DNA of 64,000 nt from Agromyces larvae. Its GTDB lineage: Bacteria; Actinomycetota; Actinomycetes; Actinomycetales; Microbacteriaceae. Under the pieces are notes generated by a model that saw only the letters and a list, made by a program, of their open reading frames with translations, had not been told where the DNA came from and searched no databases. This document shows positions 19,183-57,231 of the stretch, in pieces. Position numbers and translations under genes: made by a program. Each line of letters starts with the position of its first letter. Position 1 is the stretch's first letter. The DNA is taken from positions 2,852,001-2,916,000 of the forward strand of contig NZ_CP094528.1 in the NCBI RefSeq assembly GCF_022811705.1, written 5' to 3'.

Positions 19183-19866
19183 TCAGGACGCCGGGGTGTG
19201 CACCACGACCTTCGCCGGGCGCAGCTGGACGCTGCCGAGCGTGTAGCCCGCCTCGACGACGTCGGCGACCGTGTCGGCCTCCACGTCGGGCGAGGGCTGC
19301 TGGAAGATCGCCTCGTGCTTCTGCGGGTCGAACGCCTCGCCCGCCTCGCCGAAGCGCTCGAGCCCGAGCTTCTCGGTCGCGGCGCGCAGCTTCGCGGCGA
19401 TCGTCGCGAACGGGGTGTCGCCCTCGAGGTCGCCGTGCTTCTCGGCCCGGTCGAGGTCGTCGAGCACCGGCAGCAGCACCGCGACCGCCGCGCCGACCGC
19501 GCGCTCGCGCTCGAGCTCGCGGTTCTGCTCGGTGCGCCGACGGTAGTTGGCGTACTCGGCGGTCACCCGCTTCAGGTCGGCCAGGTGCTCGTCGGTCGGG
19601 TCCTGCACCTCGGCCTGCGCCGCGTTCAGGATGTCGTCGACGGTGAGCTCGTGCTCGCTCGCCGAGCTCGTCGAAGCGGGGGTCTCCCCTTCGACAGGCT
19701 CAGGGGGCTCGCTCGCTGAGCCCGTCGAAGCGGGGGTTTCCCCTTCGACAGGCTCAGGGGGCTCAGGGGCGCCGACGGGCTGCCGAACCGCACCGGTCTC
19801 GGGGTCGATCTTCCGCTTGTCGCGGATGATCGGCTCCTCGTGGTTCCGGTCTTCCTCGGAAGCCAT
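19183..19866 (-). CDS. grpE: GrpE nucleotide exchange factor with repeat-encoded insert
   Basis: A 227-residue GrpE that releases ADP from DnaK. The long helix begins around residue 74 (ELTVDDILNAAQAEVQ), with YANYRRRTEQNRELERERA at about 107-125, and the C-terminal beta domain ends with GYTLGSVQLRPAKVVV. Residues 34-70 are a Pro/Glu/Ser/Thr segment made of two copies of EPPEPVEGETPASTGSASlike text, encoded by palindromic repeats at 19658-19764. The insert falls in the naturally disordered N-terminus, so function should be intact. ATG follows the dnaK stop by two bases. Confidence 0.97.
   Translation of the reverse strand: MASEEDRNHEEPIIRDKRKIDPETGAVRQPVGAPEPPEPVEGETPASTGSASEPPEPVEGETPASTSSASEHELTVDDILNAAQAEVQDPTDEHLADLKRVTAEYANYRRRTEQNRELERERAVGAAVAVLLPVLDDLDRAEKHGDLEGDTPFATIAAKLRAATEKLGLERFGEAGEAFDPQKHEAIFQQPSPDVEADTVADVVEAGYTLGSVQLRPAKVVVHTPAS
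19658..19764. repeat. palindromic repeat cluster inside grpE
   Basis: Alternating arms CCCTTCGACAGGCTCAGG and CTGAGCCCGTCGAAGCGG; two full units in tandem. Read in frame as PEPVEG and ASTGSAS/ASTSSAS peptides on the coding strand. Same family as repeats in cysN, an ABC permease gene and the GH3 gene. Confidence 0.9.
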
Positions 19867-35056: not shown

Positions 35057-35823
35057 GCGCGCGCAACATCGGGCACCCGCCGGACCAGGGGCTGGTCGAG
35101 GGGATCCGCGCTCGTCGACCGGCGGAGGAGCTGCAGGCACTCGCCGCTCGCGGGGCATCCGAACTCCGCAGCCTCGCCGACGGCGAGGCATCCGCGTACG
35201 AGGTGGTCGCCTGGGTCGCGCGCAATTTCGCGACGGAAGCCGCAGCCGTCGCCTGCTCGATGGCCGACGCCGTGCTGCCGCACGTCGTCGCGCAGTCGCT
35301 GCCCGGCGTGGATGTGCTCTTCCTCGACACCGGCTACCACTTCGCGAAGACGTACGAGACGCGCGACCTCGTGGCATCCGCGCTCGATGTGCGCATCGTC
35401 GACGTCCTGCCCGAGCAGACCGTCGCCGAGCAGGACGCCGAGTTCGGGGCGCGCCTCTTCGAACGCGACCCGAACCTCTGCTGCGCCCGCCGCAAGGTCG
35501 CCCCGCTGCACGCCTCGCTGGCGGGCTACGAGGTGTGGTTCACCGGCGTGCGCCGCGACGAGGCCCCGACCCGCACGAACACCCCGCTCGTCGACTGGGA
35601 CGAACGGAACGGACTCGTGAAGGTCAACCCGCTCGCGGCGTGGAGCTTCGACGAACTGCTCGACTACGCGGGTGCCTTCGGCGTACCGGTGAACGACCTG
35701 CTCGGCCAGGGCTACCCGTCGATCGGATGCGAGCCGTGCACCAAGCCGGTCGCCGCCGGCGAAGACCCCCGGTCGGGCCGCTGGGCCGGCCTCTCGAAGA
35801 CGGAATGCGGGCTGCACCTATGA
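35053..35823 (+). CDS. cysH: APS reductase (4Fe-4S CysH)
   Basis: A 256-residue thioredoxin-dependent reductase that turns adenylyl sulfate into sulfite. It has the cluster cysteines C143-C144 (NLCCARRKV) and C226/C229 (GCEPCTKPV), which indicate an APS rather than PAPS substrate, and the catalytic cysteine C252 in the C-terminal KTECGLH. The PP-loop-like LDTGYHFAKT is at 91-100. GTG overlaps the sulfite reductase stop and the stop overlaps cysD. The absence of cysC nearby fits direct APS use. Confidence 0.97.
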   Translation: MSARNIGHPPDQGLVEGIRARRPAEELQALAARGASELRSLADGEASAYEVVAWVARNFATEAAAVACSMADAVLPHVVAQSLPGVDVLFLDTGYHFAKTYETRDLVASALDVRIVDVLPEQTVAEQDAEFGARLFERDPNLCCARRKVAPLHASLAGYEVWFTGVRRDEAPTRTNTPLVDWDERNGLVKVNPLAAWSFDELLDYAGAFGVPVNDLLGQGYPSIGCEPCTKPVAAGEDPRSGRWAGLSKTECGLHL

Positions 35824-36740
35824 CCGAGCAGATCCTCTCCAGGCCGATCGCCCTCGACACCCTCGACCTGCTCGAGGCCGAGGCGATCCACGTCATCCGC
35901 GAAGTCGTCGCCGAGTTCGAGCGACCGGTCCTGCTGTTCTCGGGCGGCAAGGACTCGGTGGTGGTGCTGCACCTCGCGGCCAAGGCGTTCCGCCCCGGCA
36001 AGGTGCCGTTCCCGGTGCTGCACGTCGACACCGGGCACAACTTCCCCGAGGTGCTGGCGTTCCGCGACGAGACGGTCGCACGGCTCGGCATCGACCTCGA
36101 GGTCGCCGAGGTGCAACGCTACCTCGACGACGGGCGCCTGCAGGAGCGCGCCGACGGCACCCGCAACCCGCTGCAGACCCAGCCGCTGCTCGATGCGATC
36201 GCCGCCGGCCGGCACGACGCGGTGTTCGGCGGCGCCCGCCGCGACGAGGACAAAGCGCGCGCGAAGGAGCGCATCTTCTCACTGCGCGACGAGTTCGGTC
36301 AGTGGGATCCGCGCAACCAGCGGCCCGAGCTGTGGAGCCTGTACAACGGCCGGCACACGCCCGGCCAGCACGTGCGCGTCTTCCCGATCTCGAACTGGAC
36401 CGAGCTCGACGTCTGGCGGTACCTCGAGCGCGAGCGCATCCCGCTGCCGCCGCTGTACTTCGCGCACGAGCGCGAGGTGTTCCGCCGCGACGGCATGTGG
36501 CGCGCGGTCGGCGAGTTCAGCGAGCCCCGAGCCGATGAGGTCGTCGAGCGCCGGACGGTCCGGTACCGCACGGTGGGTGACATGAGCTGCACCGGCGCGG
36601 TCGAATCGGATGCCTCGGACGTCGCGTCCGTGGTGCGCGAGGTCGCCGCCTCGACCCTGACCGAACGCGGCGCGACGCGCGCCGACGACCGGATCAGCGA
36701 GGCCGCGATGGAGGACCGGAAGAAGGACGGGTACTTCTGA
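35820..36740 (+). CDS. cysD: sulfate adenylyltransferase subunit 2 (CysD)
   Basis: A 306-residue N-type ATP pyrophosphatase that makes APS from ATP and sulfate. The PP-loop is SGGKDS at 41-46; the LHVDTGHNFPEVL and FGGARRDEDKARAKER blocks and the C-terminal RKKDGYF end are diagnostic. It overlaps cysH by four bases and cysN by one, so expression is coupled to the GTPase partner. Length is normal. Confidence 0.98.
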   Translation: MTEQILSRPIALDTLDLLEAEAIHVIREVVAEFERPVLLFSGGKDSVVVLHLAAKAFRPGKVPFPVLHVDTGHNFPEVLAFRDETVARLGIDLEVAEVQRYLDDGRLQERADGTRNPLQTQPLLDAIAAGRHDAVFGGARRDEDKARAKERIFSLRDEFGQWDPRNQRPELWSLYNGRHTPGQHVRVFPISNWTELDVWRYLERERIPLPPLYFAHEREVFRRDGMWRAVGEFSEPRADEVVERRTVRYRTVGDMSCTGAVESDASDVASVVREVAASTLTERGATRADDRISEAAMEDRKKDGYF

Positions 36741-38245
36741 TGACGGACACCACGACCACCCAGTACCCCGAGCTCGTCGAAGCGAGCCCCACGCCCCCTG
36801 AGCCCGTCGAAGGGAGCCCCACGCTCGAAGCGACCCCCGCGCTCCCTGAGCCCGTCGAAGGGAGCCCCGCTTCGACAAGCTCAGCGAGCCGCACGCTCGA
36901 AGCGACCCCCACGACCACGACCCTGTTCCGGTTCGCGACCGCCGGGTCCGTCGACGACGGCAAGTCGACCCTCGTCGGGCGGCTGCTGCACGACTCGAAG
37001 GCGATCCTCGCCGACCAGCTCGAGCAGGTCGCGCGCACCTCGCGCGAGCGCGGCTTCGGCCAGGGCACCGGGTTCGATTTCGCGCTGCTCACCGACGGCC
37101 TGCGCGCCGAGCGCGAGCAGGGCATCACCATCGACGTCGCCTACCGCTACTTCTCCACGGGCCGGCGCAGCTTCATCCTCGCCGACTGCCCCGGGCACGT
37201 GCAGTACACCCGGAACATGGTCACCGGGGCGACCACGGCCGACGCGGTCGTGGTGCTCATCGACGGTCGCAAGGGCGTGCTCGAGCAGACCCGACGGCAC
37301 CTCGCGGTCGTCGCGCTGCTGCGGGTGCCGCACGTGATCGTCGCCGTCAACAAGATCGACCTGCTCGGCTACGACGTGGGGGCGTTCGCCGCCGTCGAGC
37401 GACAGGTGCGCGACGTGACGCGCGAGCTCGGGCTGGGCGACGTGCACGTGCTCCCGGTGTCGGCGCTCGAGGGCGACAACGTCGTCGAGCGGTCGGCGAA
37501 CACGCCCTGGTACGACGGCCCGGCGCTGCTCGAGCTGCTCGAACACCTGCCCGCGCAGGGTGAGCTCGGGTCTCGAGACGCTCCGTCGTCGCTGCTCGAC
37601 GACCGGGCTTCCGAGGACTTCCGACTCCCGGTGCAGCTGGTGCTGCGCCCGCAGGGCGGGCTCTCGCCCGAGCTCGCCGCCGACCCGGCCGCCGCCGAGT
37701 TCTACCGCGACTACCGTGCGTTCGCCGGGCGGGTCGCGTCCGGCCGGGTCCGGGTGGGCGACCGCGTGCAAGTCTTCCCCTCGGGCATCGAGACCACCGT
37801 CACAGGCATCGACGTGGCCGGAGCATCCGCCGACGAAGCCGTCGCCCCGCAATCGATCGCGCTGCGCCTGGCCGACGACATCGACGCCGCGCGGGGCGCG
37901 GTGATCGCGACCGCGGGCACGGTGCCCGCGGGCCGGCGCGAGGTCGTGGCCGAGCTGTTCCAGCTCGACGCCCGCCCGCTCCTACCCGGCGCACGGGTCC
38001 TCGTGAAGCACGGCACCCGCACGGTGCAGGCGCTCGTCGCCTCCGTCGACGCCCGACGCGACCTCGACACCCTCGCCCACGAACCCGCTTCGGCGCTCGA
38101 GGCCAACGACATCGGTCGCGCGACCCTCCGCTTCGCGGCGGAGCTGCCGCTCGAACCGTACGAGGCGAACCGCTCCGCCGGATCGTTCCTCGTGATCCAT
38201 CCCGCCGACGGCGCCACGCTGGCGGCCGGGATCACCCACGGCTGA
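36740..38245 (+). CDS. cysN: sulfate adenylyltransferase subunit 1 (CysN GTPase) with repeat-encoded inserts
   Basis: A 501-residue EF-Tu-like GTPase that powers CysD. G1 is GSVDDGKST (69-77), G3 DCPGH (149-153), G4 NKID (204-207). There is no fused APS kinase, in line with an APS reductase pathway. Residues 10-55 are a low-complexity segment (ELVEASP, PEPVEGSP, STSSAS) encoded by palindromic repeats at 36767-36907; the true start of the conserved fold is near residue 60. A second insert at about 276-293 (GSRDAPSSLLDDRASED), between the GTPase domain and domain II, is encoded by a different repeat (37568-37607). Core motifs remain intact, so the enzyme is probably active. Confidence 0.97.
   Translation: MTDTTTTQYPELVEASPTPPEPVEGSPTLEATPALPEPVEGSPASTSSASRTLEATPTTTTLFRFATAGSVDDGKSTLVGRLLHDSKAILADQLEQVARTSRERGFGQGTGFDFALLTDGLRAEREQGITIDVAYRYFSTGRRSFILADCPGHVQYTRNMVTGATTADAVVVLIDGRKGVLEQTRRHLAVVALLRVPHVIVAVNKIDLLGYDVGAFAAVERQVRDVTRELGLGDVHVLPVSALEGDNVVERSANTPWYDGPALLELLEHLPAQGELGSRDAPSSLLDDRASEDFRLPVQLVLRPQGGLSPELAADPAAAEFYRDYRAFAGRVASGRVRVGDRVQVFPSGIETTVTGIDVAGASADEAVAPQSIALRLADDIDAARGAVIATAGTVPAGRREVVAELFQLDARPLLPGARVLVKHGTRTVQALVASVDARRDLDTLAHEPASALEANDIGRATLRFAAELPLEPYEANRSAGSFLVIHPADGATLAAGITHG
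36767..36907. repeat. palindromic repeat cluster at the 5' end of cysN
   Basis: Four to five arms of the CTGAGCCCGTCGAAGGG / CTTCGACAAGCTCAGCG family in tandem, some decayed. Read in the same phase as in grpE and the GH3 gene, giving EPVEG and STSSAS text. The insertion extends the protein N-terminus without a stop. Confidence 0.9.
37568..37607. repeat. second-family repeat inside cysN
   Basis: The segment begins GGGTCTCGAGACGCTCCG and ends GCTCGACGACCGGG, matching the GGTCTCGATACGC...CTCGACCACCGG palindrome type that also forms the hairpin at 46887-46947. It adds about 13-18 codons between two folded domains. Confidence 0.7.
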
Positions 38246-39449: not shown

Positions 39450-40193
39450 ATGACCGACCGCACCGCGATCCGCCTCGAGCACGTGGGCAAGCGCTTCGGC
39501 GCGGGCCCCGTGGTCCTCGACGACGTGAACCTCGACATCGCCGAGGGCGAGTTCGTCTGCCTGCTCGGAGCATCCGGCTGCGGCAAGTCGACGCTCCTCA
39601 ACCTCATCGCCGGCCTCGACCGGCCCTCGGCGGGCACCATCCACGTGCCCGCCGAGGGCACCGCCGTGATGTTCCAGGAGTCGGCGCTCATGCCGTGGCT
39701 CACGGCGGCGCGCAACGTCGAGCTCGCACTGCGCCTGCGCGGGGTGCCACGGGCGGCGCGGCGCACGCAGGCGCTCGAACTGCTCGACGTCGTCAACCTC
39801 GCGGACGCCGCCGACAAGCGCCCCCACGAGCTGTCGGGCGGCATGCGCCAGCGCGTCGCGCTCGCCCGCGCGCTCGCGCAGGATCGCCCCGTCCTGCTCA
39901 TGGACGAACCGTTCGCCGCGCTCGACGCGATCACCCGCGACCTGCTCCACGAGGAGCTCGAACGGGTCTGGCGGCGAACCGGCCGCACCATCGTCTTCGT
40001 CACCCACAACGTGCGCGAAGCCGCGCGGCTGGGGCAGCGCGTCGTGCTCCTGTCGAGCCGGCCCGGCCGGGTCGCGGGCGAGTGGCGCATCGCCGAGACA
40101 TCCGGTCGGCGCATCGAGTCGCCCGAGGTGGCGGCGCTCTCGATCGAGATCACCGAGCGACTGCGGAAGGAGATCCGCCGAAATGCCGCGTGA
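39450..40193 (+). CDS. ABC transporter ATPase (SsuB/TauB type)
   Basis: A 247-residue nucleotide-binding subunit: Walker A GASGCGKST (40-48), signature LSGGMRQR (about 129-136), Walker B VLLMDEPFAAL with the D-loop LD, and the H-loop in FVTHNVREA. The MFQESALMPWL Q-loop is typical of nitrate/sulfonate/taurine importers. It overlaps the permease gene by 11 bases. GGGAG precedes the ATG. Confidence 0.94.
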   Translation: MTDRTAIRLEHVGKRFGAGPVVLDDVNLDIAEGEFVCLLGASGCGKSTLLNLIAGLDRPSAGTIHVPAEGTAVMFQESALMPWLTAARNVELALRLRGVPRAARRTQALELLDVVNLADAADKRPHELSGGMRQRVALARALAQDRPVLLMDEPFAALDAITRDLLHEELERVWRRTGRTIVFVTHNVREAARLGQRVVLLSSRPGRVAGEWRIAETSGRRIESPEVAALSIEITERLRKEIRRNAA

Positions 40194-41220
40194 CGCGAAC
40201 AGCACGGTCGAGGAGGTCGTCGGGGTCGCTTCGACAGGCTCAGCGAGCCATGCAGATCAGCTCCCTGAGCCCGTCGAAGTCGCTTCGACAGGCTCAGCGA
40301 GCCCCGCACATCAGCTCCCTGAGCCCGTCGAAGGGGGCGGCGCCCCCACGCCCGCGCACGACGACCTCCGCTCCCTCGAGGCGGGCCTCGACCGGCTGCA
40401 GACCGATCTCGACACCCGCCCGAGCGCGTGGCGCCGGTTCACGACGAGCGTGCTCCCGCCGGTGCTGTTCATCGTCGCGCTGGTCGCCGCCTGGCAGCTC
40501 TACGTCGTGATCGCGCAACCGCGCCCCGACATCGCGCCGGGCCCCGTCGACGTCGTGAACGCGTTCGCCGCGGCCTGGGAGACCGGCAAGCTCCAGCTCG
40601 CCGTCGGCACGAGCCTCGAACGGGGCATCCTCGGGTTCCTCATCGCGACCGCTGTGGGCACACCGCTCGGCCTGCTGCTCGCCGAGGTGCGGCCGCTCCG
40701 GCGCGCGGTCGGCCCGATCATCTCGGGCCTGCAGGTGCTGCCGTCGGTCGCGTGGGTGCCCGCGGCGATCATCTGGTTCCAGCTGACGGATGCCACGGTC
40801 TACTTCGTGATCCTCATGGGCGCGATCCCGTCGATCGTGAACGGCCTCATCGCGGGCGTCGAGCAGGTGCCGCCGCAGCTGCGCCGGGTCGGCACGGTGC
40901 TCGGCGCCGGGCGGTTCCGGCTCGCGACCCTCGTGGTGCTGCCGGCGTCGCTGCCCGGGTATGTCGCCGGGCTCAAGCAGGGCTGGGCGTTCTCGTGGCG
41001 CTCGCTGATGGCCGCCGAGATCATCGCGATGGGCGGTTCGATCGGCTTCGGGCTCGGCTCGATGCTGCAGTTGAACCGCGACCTCGCCGATCTCGCGGGC
41101 GTGCTCGCGACGATCCTCACCATCCTCGCGATCGGCATCCTGATCGAACTGGTCGTGTTCGCGCCGCTGGAACGACGGATGCTGCGCCGCCGGGGCCTGC
41201 TCGTGGAGCGCGCGCGGTGA
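40183..41220 (+). CDS. ABC transporter permease (SsuC type) with repeat-encoded N-terminus
   Basis: A 345-residue permease with six helices from about residue 88 onwards and the cytoplasmic EAA loop near 240-260 (GAGRFRLATLVVLPASLPGYVAGLKQG). The first 85 residues are a cytoplasmic tail whose residues 14-52 (ASTGSAS, LPEPVEVASTGSAS, LPEPVEGG) are encoded by palindromic repeats at 40226-40336. The start lies within the ATPase gene and AAGGAG precedes it. Its stop overlaps cobA. The tail insertion avoids the membrane core. Confidence 0.94.
   Translation: MPRDANSTVEEVVGVASTGSASHADQLPEPVEVASTGSASPAHQLPEPVEGGGAPTPAHDDLRSLEAGLDRLQTDLDTRPSAWRRFTTSVLPPVLFIVALVAAWQLYVVIAQPRPDIAPGPVDVVNAFAAAWETGKLQLAVGTSLERGILGFLIATAVGTPLGLLLAEVRPLRRAVGPIISGLQVLPSVAWVPAAIIWFQLTDATVYFVILMGAIPSIVNGLIAGVEQVPPQLRRVGTVLGAGRFRLATLVVLPASLPGYVAGLKQGWAFSWRSLMAAEIIAMGGSIGFGLGSMLQLNRDLADLAGVLATILTILAIGILIELVVFAPLERRMLRRRGLLVERAR
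40226..40336. repeat. palindromic repeat cluster in the permease gene
   Basis: Two units of CTTCGACAGGCTCAGCGAGCC followed by CTCCCTGAGCCCGTCGAAG, in tandem with a roughly 52-base period; the first unit reads STGSAS and the second arm LPEPVE, as in grpE and GH3. Confidence 0.9.
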
Positions 41221-41996
41221 GCGGCGGCGTGACCCTCGTCGGCGCCGGCCCGGGTGACGTCGGGCTGCTCACCCTGCGCGGGCTGCGCGCGCTCGAGGCG
41301 GCCGACGTCATCGTCGCCGACCGGCTCGGCGCCCGCGGCGTGCTCGACGGCCTCGCGGCCGAGCGCGCGGCCGCCGGCGAGCCGCCGCTTTCCGCCGAGG
41401 TCGTCGACGTCGGCAAGCTGCCCGGCCATCACGCCGTGCCGCAGGACGCGATCAACGCGCTCCTCGTCTCGCTCGCGCAGGCCGGCAGGCGCGTCGTCCG
41501 GCTCAAGGGCGGCGACCCGTTCGTGTTCGGGCGCGGGCTCGAGGAGGTCCTCGCGTGCCGCGCCGCCGGCGTCGACGTCGAGGTGGTCCCCGGCGTCTCG
41601 AGCGCCGGCAGTGTGCCCGCCCTCGCCGGCATCCCGCTCACCCATCGCGGCGTCGCGACCGCCTACACCGTCGCCACCGGGCACGATCAGATCCGCGAGC
41701 TCGGCGGCGGCCGCGATCACACCGTCGTCCTCCTGATGGGCGTCGGCACGCTCGCGAACGCGGCGATCACCCTCGCACGCGGCGAACGAGGCAGCGAATG
41801 TCCAGTCGCGATCGTGGAGGATGGATACGGCCCGGGTCAGCGCGTGACCATCGGCACCCTCGACACCATCGCGGTGCAGGCGGCGCGGCGGAGCATCCGT
41901 TCGCCCGCCGTCGTCGTGGTGGGCGATGTCGTCGCGCTCAGCCCGTACGCCCCCGAAGCCCTCGCAGCATCCCTCCGAAAGGCAGCCACCCAGTGA
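41217..41996 (+). CDS. cobA: uroporphyrinogen-III C-methyltransferase
   Basis: A 259-residue SAM-dependent methyltransferase that makes precorrin-2. Visible are VTLVGAGPGDVGLLTLRG at the N-terminus (the LVGAGPGD signature), LKGGDPFVFGRG (SUMT motif, about 97-108), VVPGVSSA and LTHRG. Fused CysG dehydrogenase/chelatase domains are absent, so other proteins must complete siroheme. GTG overlaps the permease stop; the stop overlaps the ferredoxin reductase start. It supplies the cofactor of the sulfite reductase at the head of the operon. Confidence 0.97.
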   Translation: MSGGVTLVGAGPGDVGLLTLRGLRALEAADVIVADRLGARGVLDGLAAERAAAGEPPLSAEVVDVGKLPGHHAVPQDAINALLVSLAQAGRRVVRLKGGDPFVFGRGLEEVLACRAAGVDVEVVPGVSSAGSVPALAGIPLTHRGVATAYTVATGHDQIRELGGGRDHTVVLLMGVGTLANAAITLARGERGSECPVAIVEDGYGPGQRVTIGTLDTIAVQAARRSIRSPAVVVVGDVVALSPYAPEALAASLRKAATQ

Positions 41997-43393
41997 GCTC
42001 GAACCTCCGCGTCGCCATCATCGGCGCCGGCCCCGCCGGCATCTACGCCGGCAACATCCTGAACAACGTCGTGGCCTCCCTTCGAGAGGCTCAGGGAGCG
42101 ATCTCGCGCGTCTCGATCGACCTGTTCGAGTCGTTGCCCGCGCCGTACGGGCTCATCCGGTACGGCGTCGCGCCCGACCATCCCCGCATCAAGGGCATCG
42201 TGAACTCGCTGCACGAGATGCTCGACGCCGGCACCATCCGCCTGATCACGAACGTCGAAGTCGGCCGCGACATCTCGGTCGACGAACTGCAGGAGCACTA
42301 CGACGCCGTCGTCTTCGCGACCGGCGCGATCCGCGACGCGGCCCTCGACATCCCCGGCATCGACCTGCCCGGCTCGTACGGCGCCGCCGACTTCGTGAGC
42401 TGGTACGACGGACACCCCGATGTGCCGCGCACGTGGCCGCTCGAGGCCGAGTCGATCGCGGTCATCGGCAACGGCAACGTCGCGCTCGATGTCGCGCGCG
42501 TGCTCGCGAAGCATCCGGTCGATCTGCGCAAGACGGATGTCCCGGCGAACGTCTACGCCGGCCTCGAGGCGTCCCCGGTGACCGACGTGCACGTGTTCGG
42601 CCGGCGCGGCCCCGCCGACGTGAAGTTCACGCCGATCGAGCTGCGCGAGCTCGGCGAGGTGCCGAACGTCGACATCGTCGTGCACGACGAGGACTTCATC
42701 GGCGTCGACGCGACGCAGGCGCCCAACAACCAGGTGAAGATCATGCTGCGCACGCTCGAGTCGTGGCGCGGCCGCGAGTCGACCGGGGCATCCCGCCGGC
42801 TGCACCTGCACTTCTACCACTCGCCCGTCGAGGTGCTCGGCACCGACCGCGTCGAGGGCGTGCGCTTCCAGCGCAACGAGCCGGTGCCCGGCGGCGCGTG
42901 GGGCGAGGTGCGCGCGACCGACGAGTTCCGTTCGTACGACGTGCAGGCGGTCTACCGCGCGGTCGGCTACTTCGGGTCGCCGATCGTCGGGCTGCCGTTC
43001 GACGAGCGTCGCGGCGTGATCGCGAACGAGGGCGGGCGCGTGGTCGGCGCAGACGGCGCCCCGCTGCCGGGCCTGTACGCGACCGGCTGGATCAAGCGCG
43101 GCCCGGTCGGGCTCATCGGCCACACCAAGAGCGATGCGATGGAGACCATCGAGCACCTGGTCGCGGATGCCTCGGCCGGCGCGCTGCGCGCGCCTGTCGT
43201 GGCCGACGGCGATGCGGTGCTCGCACTGCTCGACGAGCGCGAAGTCGAGTACTCGACGTGGGACGGCTGGCTCGCCCTCGACGCGCACGAGCGCGCCCTC
43301 GGCGAGGCCGACGAGTTCCCCCGCGAGCGGGTGAAGGTCGTGCCCCGCGAGGAGCAGGTCGGCATCTCGCGCGGCGCGCTGGTGAGCGAGTAG
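41993..43393 (+). CDS. fprA: ferredoxin/adrenodoxin-NADP+ reductase (FprA type)
   Basis: A 466-residue flavoprotein: FAD motif IIGAGPAGIYAG (9-20), LFESLPAPYGLIRYGVAPDHP (44-64), which is diagnostic of adrenodoxin-reductase-like FprA, NADP motif VIGNGNVALDVARVL, FGRRGPADVKFTPIEL and the C-terminal GWIKRGPVGLIGHTKSDA. It likely passes electrons from NADPH to a ferredoxin that feeds the sulfite reductase, which fits its place at the end of the operon. Residues 28-36 (ASLREAQGA), in the loop after the first helix, are encoded by a short palindrome. Confidence 0.96.
   Translation: MSSNLRVAIIGAGPAGIYAGNILNNVVASLREAQGAISRVSIDLFESLPAPYGLIRYGVAPDHPRIKGIVNSLHEMLDAGTIRLITNVEVGRDISVDELQEHYDAVVFATGAIRDAALDIPGIDLPGSYGAADFVSWYDGHPDVPRTWPLEAESIAVIGNGNVALDVARVLAKHPVDLRKTDVPANVYAGLEASPVTDVHVFGRRGPADVKFTPIELRELGEVPNVDIVVHDEDFIGVDATQAPNNQVKIMLRTLESWRGRESTGASRRLHLHFYHSPVEVLGTDRVEGVRFQRNEPVPGGAWGEVRATDEFRSYDVQAVYRAVGYFGSPIVGLPFDERRGVIANEGGRVVGADGAPLPGLYATGWIKRGPVGLIGHTKSDAMETIEHLVADASAGALRAPVVADGDAVLALLDEREVEYSTWDGWLALDAHERALGEADEFPRERVKVVPREEQVGISRGALVSE
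42075..42099. repeat. short palindromic repeat inside the ferredoxin reductase gene
   Basis: CTCCCTTCGAGAGGCTCAGGGAG, a near relative of the CCTTCGACAGGCTCAGG arm but forming its own dyad. It is read in a different phase from the other copies (SLREAQG), in a surface loop of the FAD domain. Confidence 0.75.
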
Positions 43394-46886: not shown

Positions 46887-46947
46887 GCGCGTATCGAAAC
46901 CCGGTTCCCCGCCTTCCGAGGCCGGGTCACCGGGTCTCGATACGCGC
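46887..46947. terminator. repeat-derived bidirectional hairpin
   Basis: Arms 46887-46904 and 46930-46947 (18 bp) pair with one mismatch around a 25-base GC-rich loop. It lies between two convergent stops and belongs to the CGTATCGAAACCCGG/CCGGGTCTCGATACG repeat family, so a mobile palindrome appears to serve as terminator. A related half-copy lies at about 58093-58116. Confidence 0.8.
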
Positions 46948-54528: not shown

Positions 54529-57231
54529 TTACTTCGTGTCTCCGATGACGACCGGGGCTGCCAGTCGGAGGTCTCTGCTGGACCGCCCCACCCGGAGCTC
54601 GTACGCTCCGGCCGGAAGAGTCCATGCTTGCGTGTCCGTGTCCCAGATCTCGAACGCGCGTCGCGCGATCGGGATCGACACGGATGCCTCGCCGCCCGCC
54701 GCGACGTCGACGAGCGCGAAACCCGCGAGCCAGCGCTGGGGGCGCTGCTCGTCGGTGTCGTCGGGGGCGGAGAGGTAGGCCTGCACGACCTCGCGCGCGT
54801 CGACGGTGCCGACGTTCGCGACGGTGACGTGCGCGGTGACGACGGGGCCCGTCGAGCTCGCAGAGCCCGTCGAGCCCGCTGAGCCCGTCGAGCTCGCTGA
54901 GCCCGTCGAAGCGAGCCCACCCCCTTCGACAAGCTCAGGGGACCCGACCGAGCTCGCTGAGCCCGTCGAAGCGAGCCCACCCCCTTCGACAAGCTCAGGG
55001 GACTCCGCCAGCGCGAGCGACCGATAGGCCCACTCGCCGTAACCGAGGCCGAACCCGAACTCGCGTGCGGGGGTGCGGCCGAGGCGGTCCCAGCCGCGGT
55101 GGCCGACGTGCACGCCCTCGGTGTAGTCGATGTAGCCGTCGACGGGCAGCCCGTTCGGCACCGGCACGTCGGCTTCGCTCGCCGGGAGGGTCCACGGCAG
55201 TCGGCCGCTCGGTTCGATCTCGCCGGTGAGCACGGCGGCGAGCGACGAGCCGGCCTCCTGGCCGGGCAGCCACCACCAGAGCACGGCGGGCACCTCGTCG
55301 AGCCAGGGCAGGATGACGGGCGCGCCCGCGTTCACGACGACGACGGTGCGCGGGTTCGCGGCCACCACACGGCGCACGAGCTCGTCCTGCCGGCCGGGCA
55401 GCGCGAGGCCGGGGCGGTCCCAGCCCTCGGACTCGGTCTCGGGGTTGGTGCCGACGACCACGACCGCGAGATCGGCGCCGGCGGCCGCGGCGACGGCCTG
55501 CTCGATCTCCTCGTCGACGGTGAGGCCGGGGGCGCGGTAGCGGAAGTGCACGCGCACGAACCGCCCGTAGCTCTCGCCGTCGATGACCTGCAGGTCGGCC
55601 TCGACGCGCACGCGGCGGTCGGCCTCGACGTCGATCGTCGACTCGATCATCGGCGGGTTCGCGTAGCTGGAGTTCAGCACGACCTCGACGCCGACCTCGT
55701 CGGTCGACTCGCCGCGCAGTTCGCCGTCGACGACGACGCGGTGCGCGCCGACCGGGCCGACCTCGATCACGTGACGGCCGGCGCCCTCGAGTGCGACCTC
55801 GGCGGTCAGGCGGGCGGATGCCACGCGGGCGTCGGCGACCGGGAACCAGAGGCCCGTGGCATCCGGAACCTGGAGCGACTCGACCGTGGAGCCGTCGGCG
55901 GCGAGCAGGTCGATGCGGATGCCGGGCTCGCCGTCGGGCGTGGTGACGAGCTCGCCGGGCACGAGCGGTGCGGTGACGGTCGTCGCGCCGCCGCGGAATC
56001 GGGCGACCTCGGTGCCGGGCAGCGCCGCCTGCAGCGCCTCGAGCGGGTCGCTGATGTGGGGTGCGGTGACGAACGCGCTGCCGCCGCCCTGCGTGAACGG
56101 CTCGACCGCATTGTGGCCGATGAGGGCGACGCGCTTCGGGGCATCCGCACCCGATGCGATGGGGAGCAGCGCACCTTCGTTGCGCAGCACGACCGTCGAT
56201 CGCGCCGCGGCCTCGCGCAGCAGCGCGACGACCTCGTCGCCGGCCGGGTCGTCGGTGGCGCCCGCCTGGTCGTAGGGCAGCACGTCGCCGGCGACGCCGC
56301 TCAGGGCGCCGACCCGCTCGCCGAGCCGCACGATGCGCGCGACCTTCTCGTCGATGACCGACTCGGGCACCTCGCCCGACTCGACGGCGGCGACGAGCGC
56401 CGCGCCCCACGGCCCGCCGGGGCCGGGCATGATCAGGTCGAGCCCGCCGTTGGCCGACTCGGCGGTGTGCTTGGTGGCGAGCCAGTCGCTGATCACGACG
56501 CCGTCGAACGCCCACTCGCCCTTGAGGATGCCGTTGAGCAGCGGGCCGTGCGCGGTCGCGGTCTGCTCGACGCCGTCGCGGCTGAGCCCGTTGTAGGCGG
56601 CCATGATCGTCCACACGCCGGCCTCGACGACGGCTTCGAACGGGGCGAGGTAGACCTCGCGCAGCGTGCGCTCGTCGATGCGGGAGAGGTAGGTGGTGCG
56701 GTCGGTCTCGGTCTCGTTGCCGATGAAGTGCTTGACGCAGCCGGCGATGCCCTGCTGCTGCAGCGCGTCGATGAACGCGACGGCGAGGCGGGCGGTGAGC
56801 AGCGGGTCCTCGGAGAAGCACTCGAAGTGCCGGCCGCCGACGGGCGAGCGCTGCAGGTTCACCACCGGGGCGAGCACGACGTCGACGCCCTTGCGGCGGG
56901 CCTCGGCGGCCATCAGCTCGCCGAGTGCGGCCTGGAGGCGCACGTCCCAGGTGGCGGCGGTCGCGCTCGGTGCGGGCATCTGCGCCGAGGGCAGGCCGTC
57001 TTCGCCGGTGCCGCGGACTCCGATGGGCCCGTCGGACACGGTCATGGTGCGCAGGCCCAGTTGGGGGAGCTCGGTCAGCGTCCAGGTGGCGGCGCCGGTG
57101 AGCAGTCGCACCTTGTCGGCGAGCGGAAGCGCGGTCGCGATGGCGATGGCGTCCTCGAGGGCGAGGGCGGTCGGATCGGGCCGATGCGCAGCCCGCTCGT
57201 CGGTTCCGCTGGCCGTGGTGGTCGAGGTCAC
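54529..57231 (-). CDS. GH3 beta-glucosidase with PA14 insert and repeat-encoded segment
   Basis: A 900-residue intracellular (no signal peptide) glycoside hydrolase. N-terminal barrel with KHFIGNETETDR (about 167-178) and the nucleophile Asp249 in GVVISDW; the second domain begins near 345 (AARSTVVLRNEGALLPI) and is split by a PA14-like region (about 420-560); VVVVGTNPETESEG follows; FnIII-like domain at the end. Residues about 743-793 (SPELVEGGGLASTGSAS text) just before the FnIII domain are encoded by palindromic repeats. GTG at 57231 has AAGGAG eight bases upstream. It heads the Opp operon and is divergent from a TetR gene, so imported beta-glucosides are its likely substrate. Confidence 0.95.
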   Translation of the reverse strand: MTSTTTASGTDERAAHRPDPTALALEDAIAIATALPLADKVRLLTGAATWTLTELPQLGLRTMTVSDGPIGVRGTGEDGLPSAQMPAPSATAATWDVRLQAALGELMAAEARRKGVDVVLAPVVNLQRSPVGGRHFECFSEDPLLTARLAVAFIDALQQQGIAGCVKHFIGNETETDRTTYLSRIDERTLREVYLAPFEAVVEAGVWTIMAAYNGLSRDGVEQTATAHGPLLNGILKGEWAFDGVVISDWLATKHTAESANGGLDLIMPGPGGPWGAALVAAVESGEVPESVIDEKVARIVRLGERVGALSGVAGDVLPYDQAGATDDPAGDEVVALLREAAARSTVVLRNEGALLPIASGADAPKRVALIGHNAVEPFTQGGGSAFVTAPHISDPLEALQAALPGTEVARFRGGATTVTAPLVPGELVTTPDGEPGIRIDLLAADGSTVESLQVPDATGLWFPVADARVASARLTAEVALEGAGRHVIEVGPVGAHRVVVDGELRGESTDEVGVEVVLNSSYANPPMIESTIDVEADRRVRVEADLQVIDGESYGRFVRVHFRYRAPGLTVDEEIEQAVAAAAGADLAVVVVGTNPETESEGWDRPGLALPGRQDELVRRVVAANPRTVVVVNAGAPVILPWLDEVPAVLWWWLPGQEAGSSLAAVLTGEIEPSGRLPWTLPASEADVPVPNGLPVDGYIDYTEGVHVGHRGWDRLGRTPAREFGFGLGYGEWAYRSLALAESPELVEGGGLASTGSASSVGSPELVEGGGLASTGSASSTGSAGSTGSASSTGPVVTAHVTVANVGTVDAREVVQAYLSAPDDTDEQRPQRWLAGFALVDVAAGGEASVSIPIARRAFEIWDTDTQAWTLPAGAYELRVGRSSRDLRLAAPVVIGDTK
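54852..55003. repeat. palindromic repeat array inside the GH3 gene
   Basis: A 60-base unit is tandemly duplicated with identity over 53 bases (54891-54943 and 54951-55003), each with a GCTGAGCCCGTCGAAGCG arm and a CCCTTCGACAAGCTCAGGG arm; shorter arms extend to about 54852. Read on the coding strand as SPELVEGGGLASTGSAS units. Confidence 0.92.

Follow-up and report, generated by a model that had tools for sequence, protein, structure and literature searches.

Short REP-like repeats have spread through the lineage of this actinobacterium and, to judge from the sequence comparisons below, likely persist inside genes only where they preserve the reading frame and add a flexible, soluble linker to a tail or loop of the encoded protein. 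The repeated unit is a 19-bp arm (CCCTTCGACARGCTCAGGG) that occurs 449 times (253 forward and 196 reverse copies, up to three mismatches) in a genome of 4.0 Mb; the reversed control sequence is found four times (3 + 1) in the same genome at the same cut-off. The original prediction, made from a 64-kb stretch of this DNA (the window), had proposed a genome-wide search for the arm, and the outcome bears it out: the intragenic copies are non-random in phase, with 152 of 189 read as STGSA or EPVEG, both of them small polar peptides. The genome (G000) is a single contig of 4,005,264 bases, and the window corresponds to bases 2,852,001-2,916,000.

The repeat arm in cysN and across the genome

The cysN gene (36740-38245, forward strand) encodes the 501-residue sulfate adenylyltransferase subunit 1, with CysN-type GTPase matches in Pfam and NCBIfam from residue 53-64. 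Its ATG overlaps by one base (TGATG) the stop codon of the upstream gene at 35820-36740, which from its sequence and place we read as cysD. Because start and stop overlap by one base, any insert at the cysN start must be translated, and no in-frame ATG, GTG or TTG lies between this start and the GTPase domain. The presence of arms in the N-terminal part of the gene is confirmed, with four of them at 36766-36886. The first (36766-36784, reverse strand, two to three mismatches) is read as ELVEA, the second and third (36796-36814 and 36844-36862, both reverse) as EPVEG, and the fourth (36868-36886, forward) as STSSAS; arms 3 and 4 pair in a predicted hairpin of -31.4 kcal/mol (z = -4.5). The further statement that 45 residues are built from arms is correct as to the arms themselves but overstates their extent, which is about 28 residues plus spacers (TLEATP, twice). 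In the AlphaFold model of CysN, residues 1-59 have a pLDDT near 30, while 355 residues reach at least 70; this low confidence at the N-terminus is suggestive only, because the conserved stretches 86-97 and 110-131 also fall below 50. A search with CysN residues 8-61 recovered its own protein alone among 167 candidates, a weakly informative result, since such a search retrieves only candidates of similar length that have five-residue words in common with the query.

A second, unrelated repeat-like insert (GSRDAPSSLLDDRA) is found in cysN at 37569-37606 (forward strand), where it adds 11 alignment columns that are empty in each of the 25 aligned relatives. It is in frame (GGTCTCGAGACG...CTCGACGACCGG), and the pLDDT is below 50 at residues 278-290; in one of the 25 relatives (L083), another insert of different sequence lies next to this site. 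Related 12-mers with one mismatch lie between called genes at 46890-46944 and 58096, although the number of single 12-mers of this insert in the window (4) is close to the 2.6 expected by chance.

The window contains 16 arms at up to three mismatches, compared with 0.06 expected from shuffling. Apart from cysN, four lie in the N-terminal part of grpE (arms at 19660-19759, gene at 19183-19866, both on the reverse strand), four in the N-terminal part of an ABC permease gene (40227-40335 in 40183-41220, forward), which begins 11 bp before the end of the upstream gene, and four in a GH3 gene (54895-55000 in 54529-57231, reverse), between the Glyco_hydro_3_C and Fn3-like domains. As originally proposed, all arms with up to two mismatches in these genes share one phase, EPVEG or STGSA. 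This picture holds for the four genes that had been named but not for a fifth, an FAD/NAD oxidoreductase gene (41993-43393, forward), in which a single arm (42078-42096, forward) is read as SLREAQG. Predicted hairpins of single pairs have z values of -4.5 in cysN, -2.1 in grpE and -3.6 in GH3; among the four stretches folded (two of them overlapping, both from cysN), three have z below -3 and one has -2.1. Chance matches as the origin of the arms are ruled out by the shuffling and reversed-pattern controls. A few EPVEG or PFDRL arms with two mismatches could be chance occurrences (16 + 7 near-matches with up to three mismatches lie away from arms).

For a genome-wide view we sampled 52 stretches around listed clusters which, with the window, make 53 stretches and 582,451 bp. 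Genes were called with a purpose-written codon log-odds caller with the arms masked, giving 567 genes at 90% density. The sample holds 396 arms with up to two mismatches: 189 inside 53 genes, three across gene ends and 204 between genes, the latter within about 10% of the sampled DNA. Arm density is 3.5 per kb in non-coding and 0.36 per kb in coding DNA of the sampled stretches, about a tenfold difference. Most of the evidence for clusters past about 3.23 Mb comes from matches on the forward strand, and the count of arm-bearing genes is at least 53. All 53 encoded proteins have a Pfam match, from which we read the hosts to include TopA, PEPCK, BirA, PheT, LepA, Dus, GcvH, GcvP, MetH, LigD, ferrochelatase, PutA, isocitrate lyase, GrpE and CysN.

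The arm has two outer variants, CCC...GGG and CGC...GCG, and in the sampled stretches occurs singly, as inverted pairs or in arrays. Inverted pairs span about 45-60 bp, and lone 19-bp arms are found in GcvH and HemH. In four loci (L053, L057, L066 and L069) short in-frame satellites with SSTGSA, SLAGSA or SLSPSS units flank the arms, as if the arm seeded slippage. Distribution in the genus is patchy: an exact 15-bp core is present in 32 of 60 genomes and absent from 28, with 214 copies here, 137 in G032, 72 in G033 and one in G023. A 17-bp core is held by 14 of 396 genomes of the phylum, this one included.

We found no match to the RAYT-type transposase family Y1_Tnp (PF01797) in this genome; the same search was positive in five of 14 control genomes. 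At the cysN copy, a search for known RNA families gave two weak matches (18.5 of 97 and 15.5 of 38 bits), far below the gathering scores. Inspection by eye of GcvH (+18 bp) and PaaE (+27 bp) against G023 revealed no clean target-site duplication of the MITE type. The open-licence literature yielded no description of this repeat or of its phase bias in Actinomycetota, Microbacteriaceae or Agromyces, and a search with the core sequence returned no paper, sequences inside figures not being searchable.

Reading phase of the intragenic arms

Among intragenic arms with up to two mismatches, forward copies are read as STGSA in 84 cases, LRQAQ in 24 and PFDRL in four, and reverse copies as EPVEG in 68 and LSLSK in nine, with none in the stop phase; 37 of the 189 are in phases other than STGSA and EPVEG. 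The forward and reverse arms of one pair are non-independent, and both orientations occur in 31 genes. Counted by gene, with exact arms and the majority phase, STGSA prevails in 28 of 37 genes (p = 2e-7 against one third) and EPVEG in 26 of 29 (p = 8e-6 against one half). When only arms 60 aa or more from either protein end are counted, the figures become 27 of 35 and 18 of 20 genes. This is a strong preference and no rule, since 33 of the 53 genes are purely STGSA/EPVEG, nine are mixed and 11 are purely in other phases; phase conservation across unrelated genes, as first proposed, stands as a majority pattern but does not extend to these 11. Spacing follows the codon frame as well: where two neighbours lie no more than 120 bp apart, the distance is a multiple of three in 106 of 126 pairs within genes versus 49 of 161 between genes.

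As a control for codon structure, we counted near-matches with up to five mismatches elsewhere in genes. In the forward orientation these fall to PFDRL in 443 cases, STGSA in 33 and LRQAQ in eight, so that the codon background predicts PFDRL above STGSA, the opposite of the observed 28 STGSA genes and one PFDRL gene. In the reverse orientation the control gives EPVEG 360, LSLSK 113 and two in the stop phase, and the observed 26 genes versus three are near this expectation (p = 0.06 and 0.11). Selection on the peptide is accordingly firm for STGSA, which the codon background opposes, and weak for EPVEG, which it nearly yields. That positional or codon bias alone sets the phase can be rejected for the forward orientation; for the reverse one such bias may suffice. 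Of 29 mismatches in STGSA arms (duplicates removed), 26 are at the third position of a codon, compared with 35 of 62 for intergenic arms in the same register (p = 0.001); in EPVEG arms the figure is 19 of 26 (p = 0.11).

Exceptions to the preference also occur in conserved enzymes: lone arms in the LRQAQ phase with no more than one mismatch are found at residue 69 of LepA (L038), residue 406 of an ABC exporter (L082) and residue 166 of isocitrate lyase (L081), where they are possibly tolerated as helix. A class III aminotransferase gene, likely hemL (L072, G000:C1:3266424), starts with four tandem LRQAQG units.

Insertion sites in this genome and in its relatives

The comparison with relatives covered eight of the 53 genes and used the best 30 loci of each search. 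The nearest of the 59 other genus genomes is G023, with 94% identity in GcvH, 82% in PaaD and 88% in GrpE. In seven of these eight genes (CysN, GcvH, GcvP, PaaC, PaaD, PaaE and HemH) the alignments identify the arms as insertions. PaaE is 27 bp longer than in G023, and HemH has five more residues than that of A. intestinalis. In PaaC and PaaD the arms lie a few codons from the starts, where G023 is without arms, and a loop of GcvP that is built of arms here has other sequence in G023. In GrpE the arms lie in a linker that differs between relatives, and therefore no exact empty site can be drawn.

Alignment of CysN with its relatives, which had also been suggested at the outset, likewise indicates that the insert is absent from them. 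Across 30 genus CysN proteins, our own included, 3-32 residues precede the motif LFRFATAG in 26 and 40-61 in four, and 14 of the 30 have only 3-4 residues before the fold. The N-terminus studied here has 61 residues and uses the 19-bp arm, compared with 3-41 residues in the others. Inverted repeats of at least 9 bp are present in all four long N-termini, and one of 8 bp in one of the 26 others. Unrelated N-termini of the same length throughout the orthologues, which would have spoken against the insertion, are not what is found: the 29 other genus N-termini are all shorter, and 25 of them are without an inverted repeat of at least 8 bp. A second palindrome (CGTATCGAGACC type) lies in frame at the cysN start of G027 (L172), G020 (L181) and Agromyces bracchium (L093), and a third (CCGAGTGTTAACG), a candidate repeat, at that of G010 (L180); the latter occurs in no other locus among the relatives' loci compared. 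In sister species, unrelated palindromes have entered the cysD-cysN junction. Six of the 60 genus genomes (G005, G006, G023, G038, G041 and G055) have no CysN-class match, their best match being EF-Tu-like with E near 1e-21.

In GcvH, a turn reads EWVLV-GPSTGSGTG-VVTIG here and EWVLV-DGD-VATIG in G023, a net gain of 18 bp, and all 29 relatives among the best 30 loci have a short turn without the arm. The GcvH of A. intestinalis (P0004), the nearest from a named species, matches G023 in the sequence of this turn, and G023 is probably that species. Five further genomes (G006, G015, G029, G038 and G056; L315-L319) lengthen this turn with an unrelated peptide (DEDPAEGVDAGG type), from which it follows that the turn tolerates length; a long GcvH turn was accordingly rejected as proof of the repeat. 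The predicted structure of GcvH was too poor for use (pLDDT 39.6).

Arms avoid recognised domains. With Pfam envelopes taken as the best stretch for each main family, only 15 of 63 clusters fall within them, compared with 43.4 expected from length, and none of 20,000 simulations gave a number as low; the 48 clusters counted outside are an inflated figure, because large inserts can themselves disrupt Pfam matches. Arms near protein starts follow gene order. Where an arm is in the first 60 residues, a same-strand gene lies within 20 bp upstream or overlaps in 12 of 16 genes, versus 129 of 450 others (p = 2e-4); the test counts 466 of the 567 genes, those with weak scores or open starts being left out. 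Without the four window genes the figure is 8 of 12 (p = 0.008), which is the fairer one because the idea of a junction effect was formed from CysN.

In four of the seven genes that could be aligned in number (CysN, GcvH, GcvP and PaaE), another lineage carries this arm, or the peptide that it encodes, in the corresponding position; PaaC, PaaD and GrpE have no such parallel case. The CysN of Microbacterium psychrotolerans has an arm at the same N-terminal place, read as VPELVEG, and the GcvP loop of G033 has AELVEA...PFDRLR. The PaaE of G026 has PSTGSGT, with two third-position differences from the arm over 18 in-frame bases. Two environmental GcvH proteins (P0003 and P0005) have, at the protein level, DPSTGSGQ and DPSTGSGH in the same turn. 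The parallel cases would be independent, as relatives without the arm suggest, and exchange between species is possible. Four further environmental GcvH proteins (P0006-P0008 and P0014) have a variant of PSTGSG of the same length in this turn, and these could be worn versions of the arm or unrelated lengthenings.

Two sister genomes have the same arm with a different balance. Of the sampled arms, 11 of 161 are in genes in G032 (p = 9e-23) and 16 of 59 in G033 (p = 0.004), compared with 189 of 396 here, and by these fractions the intragenic load is heavier in this genome; the intergenic counts are 148 of 161 and 41 of 59, respectively. Intragenic arms are too few in both genomes for replication of the phase bias (STGSA in 3 of 5 and 3 of 6 genes), and G033 has 10 arms in the LRQAQ phase but 4 in the STGSA phase.

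Possible origin and comparison with known systems

The mechanism that we favour is that of selfish DNA tolerated where reading frame, position and peptide allow. The arm is a dispersed element, patchy in the genus, often present as inverted pairs with predicted hairpins and denser between genes. Its intragenic copies are in-frame insertions in seven of the eight genes compared, and across the 63 clusters fall mostly outside Pfam domains; N-terminal copies are found mainly in genes that touch or overlap an upstream gene. The element may land or survive at gene junctions, so that in an operon without spacers the downstream protein would gain an N-terminal tail. Purifying selection would then remove phases that stop translation or yield stickier peptides, and in-frame slippage could subsequently grow arms into arrays. 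Selection on the peptide itself is firmly shown for the forward orientation only. More tentatively, the dispersed repeat might be a genome-wide generator of linkers, with the palindromes hosted by each Microbacteriaceae lineage repeatedly reaching the same permissive sites, peptide solubility setting the surviving phase and unrelated proteins in unrelated species converging on shared flexible peptides; the cysD-cysN junction, the GcvH turn and the loops of GcvP and PaaE would perhaps be such sites.

A different view is that the repeats are functional linkers, kept or spread since EPVEG and STGSA tails and loops help their proteins. This would fit the excess of third-position changes in STGSA arms, the long in-frame arrays and the presence of the same arm or peptide at the same place in M. 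psychrotolerans CysN, G033 GcvP, G026 PaaE and two environmental GcvH proteins. We nevertheless consider it unlikely: the host genes have no common function, the nearest relative is without arms in the genes compared, in 14 of 30 genus CysN genes just 3-4 residues precede the fold, the GcvH turn owes its extra length to an unrelated peptide in five genomes, and tolerance at a few permissive sites also accounts for the parallel cases. The phase could instead be set by the insertion itself, through a target or microhomology step with a preferred codon position, the peptide being under little selection. The reverse codon background, which comes near the observed EPVEG excess, is what such a step would lead one to expect, but the forward background (PFDRL 443, STGSA 33) runs opposite to the observed genes and the position of the clusters outside Pfam domains would be left unexplained, which makes this quite improbable.

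An annotation artefact, with N-terminal arms being untranslated leader and the true starts downstream, seems a very improbable source for much of the pattern. PMC3733652 warns of this for N-terminal REPs, and several N-terminal cases here have an in-frame GTG between the arms and the domain. Against this, in four of the 17 genes checked, including CysN and GrpE, no alternative in-frame start precedes the domain, arms in the interior (60 aa or more from either end) have the same phase bias, and the multiple-of-three spacing inside genes is absent between them.

The genome offers a natural experiment on tolerated peptides, with one DNA arm and six possible readings in more than 50 conserved proteins, and with a near relative that has one exact core copy and no arms in the compared genes. 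It would make selection on in-frame insertions measurable and would link operon compactness to N-terminal protein tails. It would also carry a warning that EPVEG and STGSA stretches in proteins of actinobacteria may derive from repeats and tell little about function.

REP doublets of the REPIN/RAYT systems are inverted pairs at short spacing, like the arms described here. Those systems have a Y1 (IS200-like) transposase, whereas this genome has no PF01797 match. Like REP and BIME elements, which are short (20-40 bp), high-copy palindromes found mostly between genes, the 19-bp arm has 449 copies and is mostly intergenic in the sample (204 of 396), as it is in the two sister genomes.

The original prediction had likened the phase conservation to Rickettsia palindromic elements, a comparison that is apt in effect, although the in-frame REPs of PMC3733652, which include RPE-4 and RPE-6, are the nearer precedent. 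As described in PMC2229807 and PMC10969869, Rickettsia palindromic elements are palindromic selfish DNA inserted in frame in unrelated conserved genes, with shared peptides; in-frame arms likewise occur here in 53 such genes, with insertion shown in seven of the eight compared. They are, by the same accounts, about 105-150 bp long, those of PMC2229807 with one long stem, whereas the arm here is 19 bp and occurs singly, paired or arrayed in a 4-Mb genome; the comparison is by description. PMC2996958 cites palindromes that code for protein in Wolbachia and Methanocaldococcus; these are similarly inserted in frame, as a rule within non-structured segments, and differ in host, and this likeness too is one of description.

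The closest likeness is to the GTAG/CGTC REPs of PMC3733652 (2013), which are short, high-copy palindromes, mostly intergenic and in some cases in frame in varied genes of O. terrae (which we read as Opitutus terrae), Rickettsia conorii and others. More than half of the in-frame copies are reported there to be dimers or groups that encode 20-30 residues, and the paper places the short RPE-4 and RPE-6 with the CGTC REPs. Host genes named in that text include an error-prone polymerase, a ligase, a helicase and a tRNA synthetase, and our Pfam-based readings include DnaE-type, LigD, HrpA-like and PheT genes. No unpaired tag is recognised in the present arm, which is without GTAG and has CGTC inside some variants but never at the end; nor was a Y1 transposase found. 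The host is also different, the word stem actinobacteri- being absent from the main text of PMC3733652. In-frame REPs and Rickettsia elements are precedents, and what is new here is the scale in one actinobacterium, the recurrence of landing sites, the rule on operon junctions and a phase bias measured against a control.
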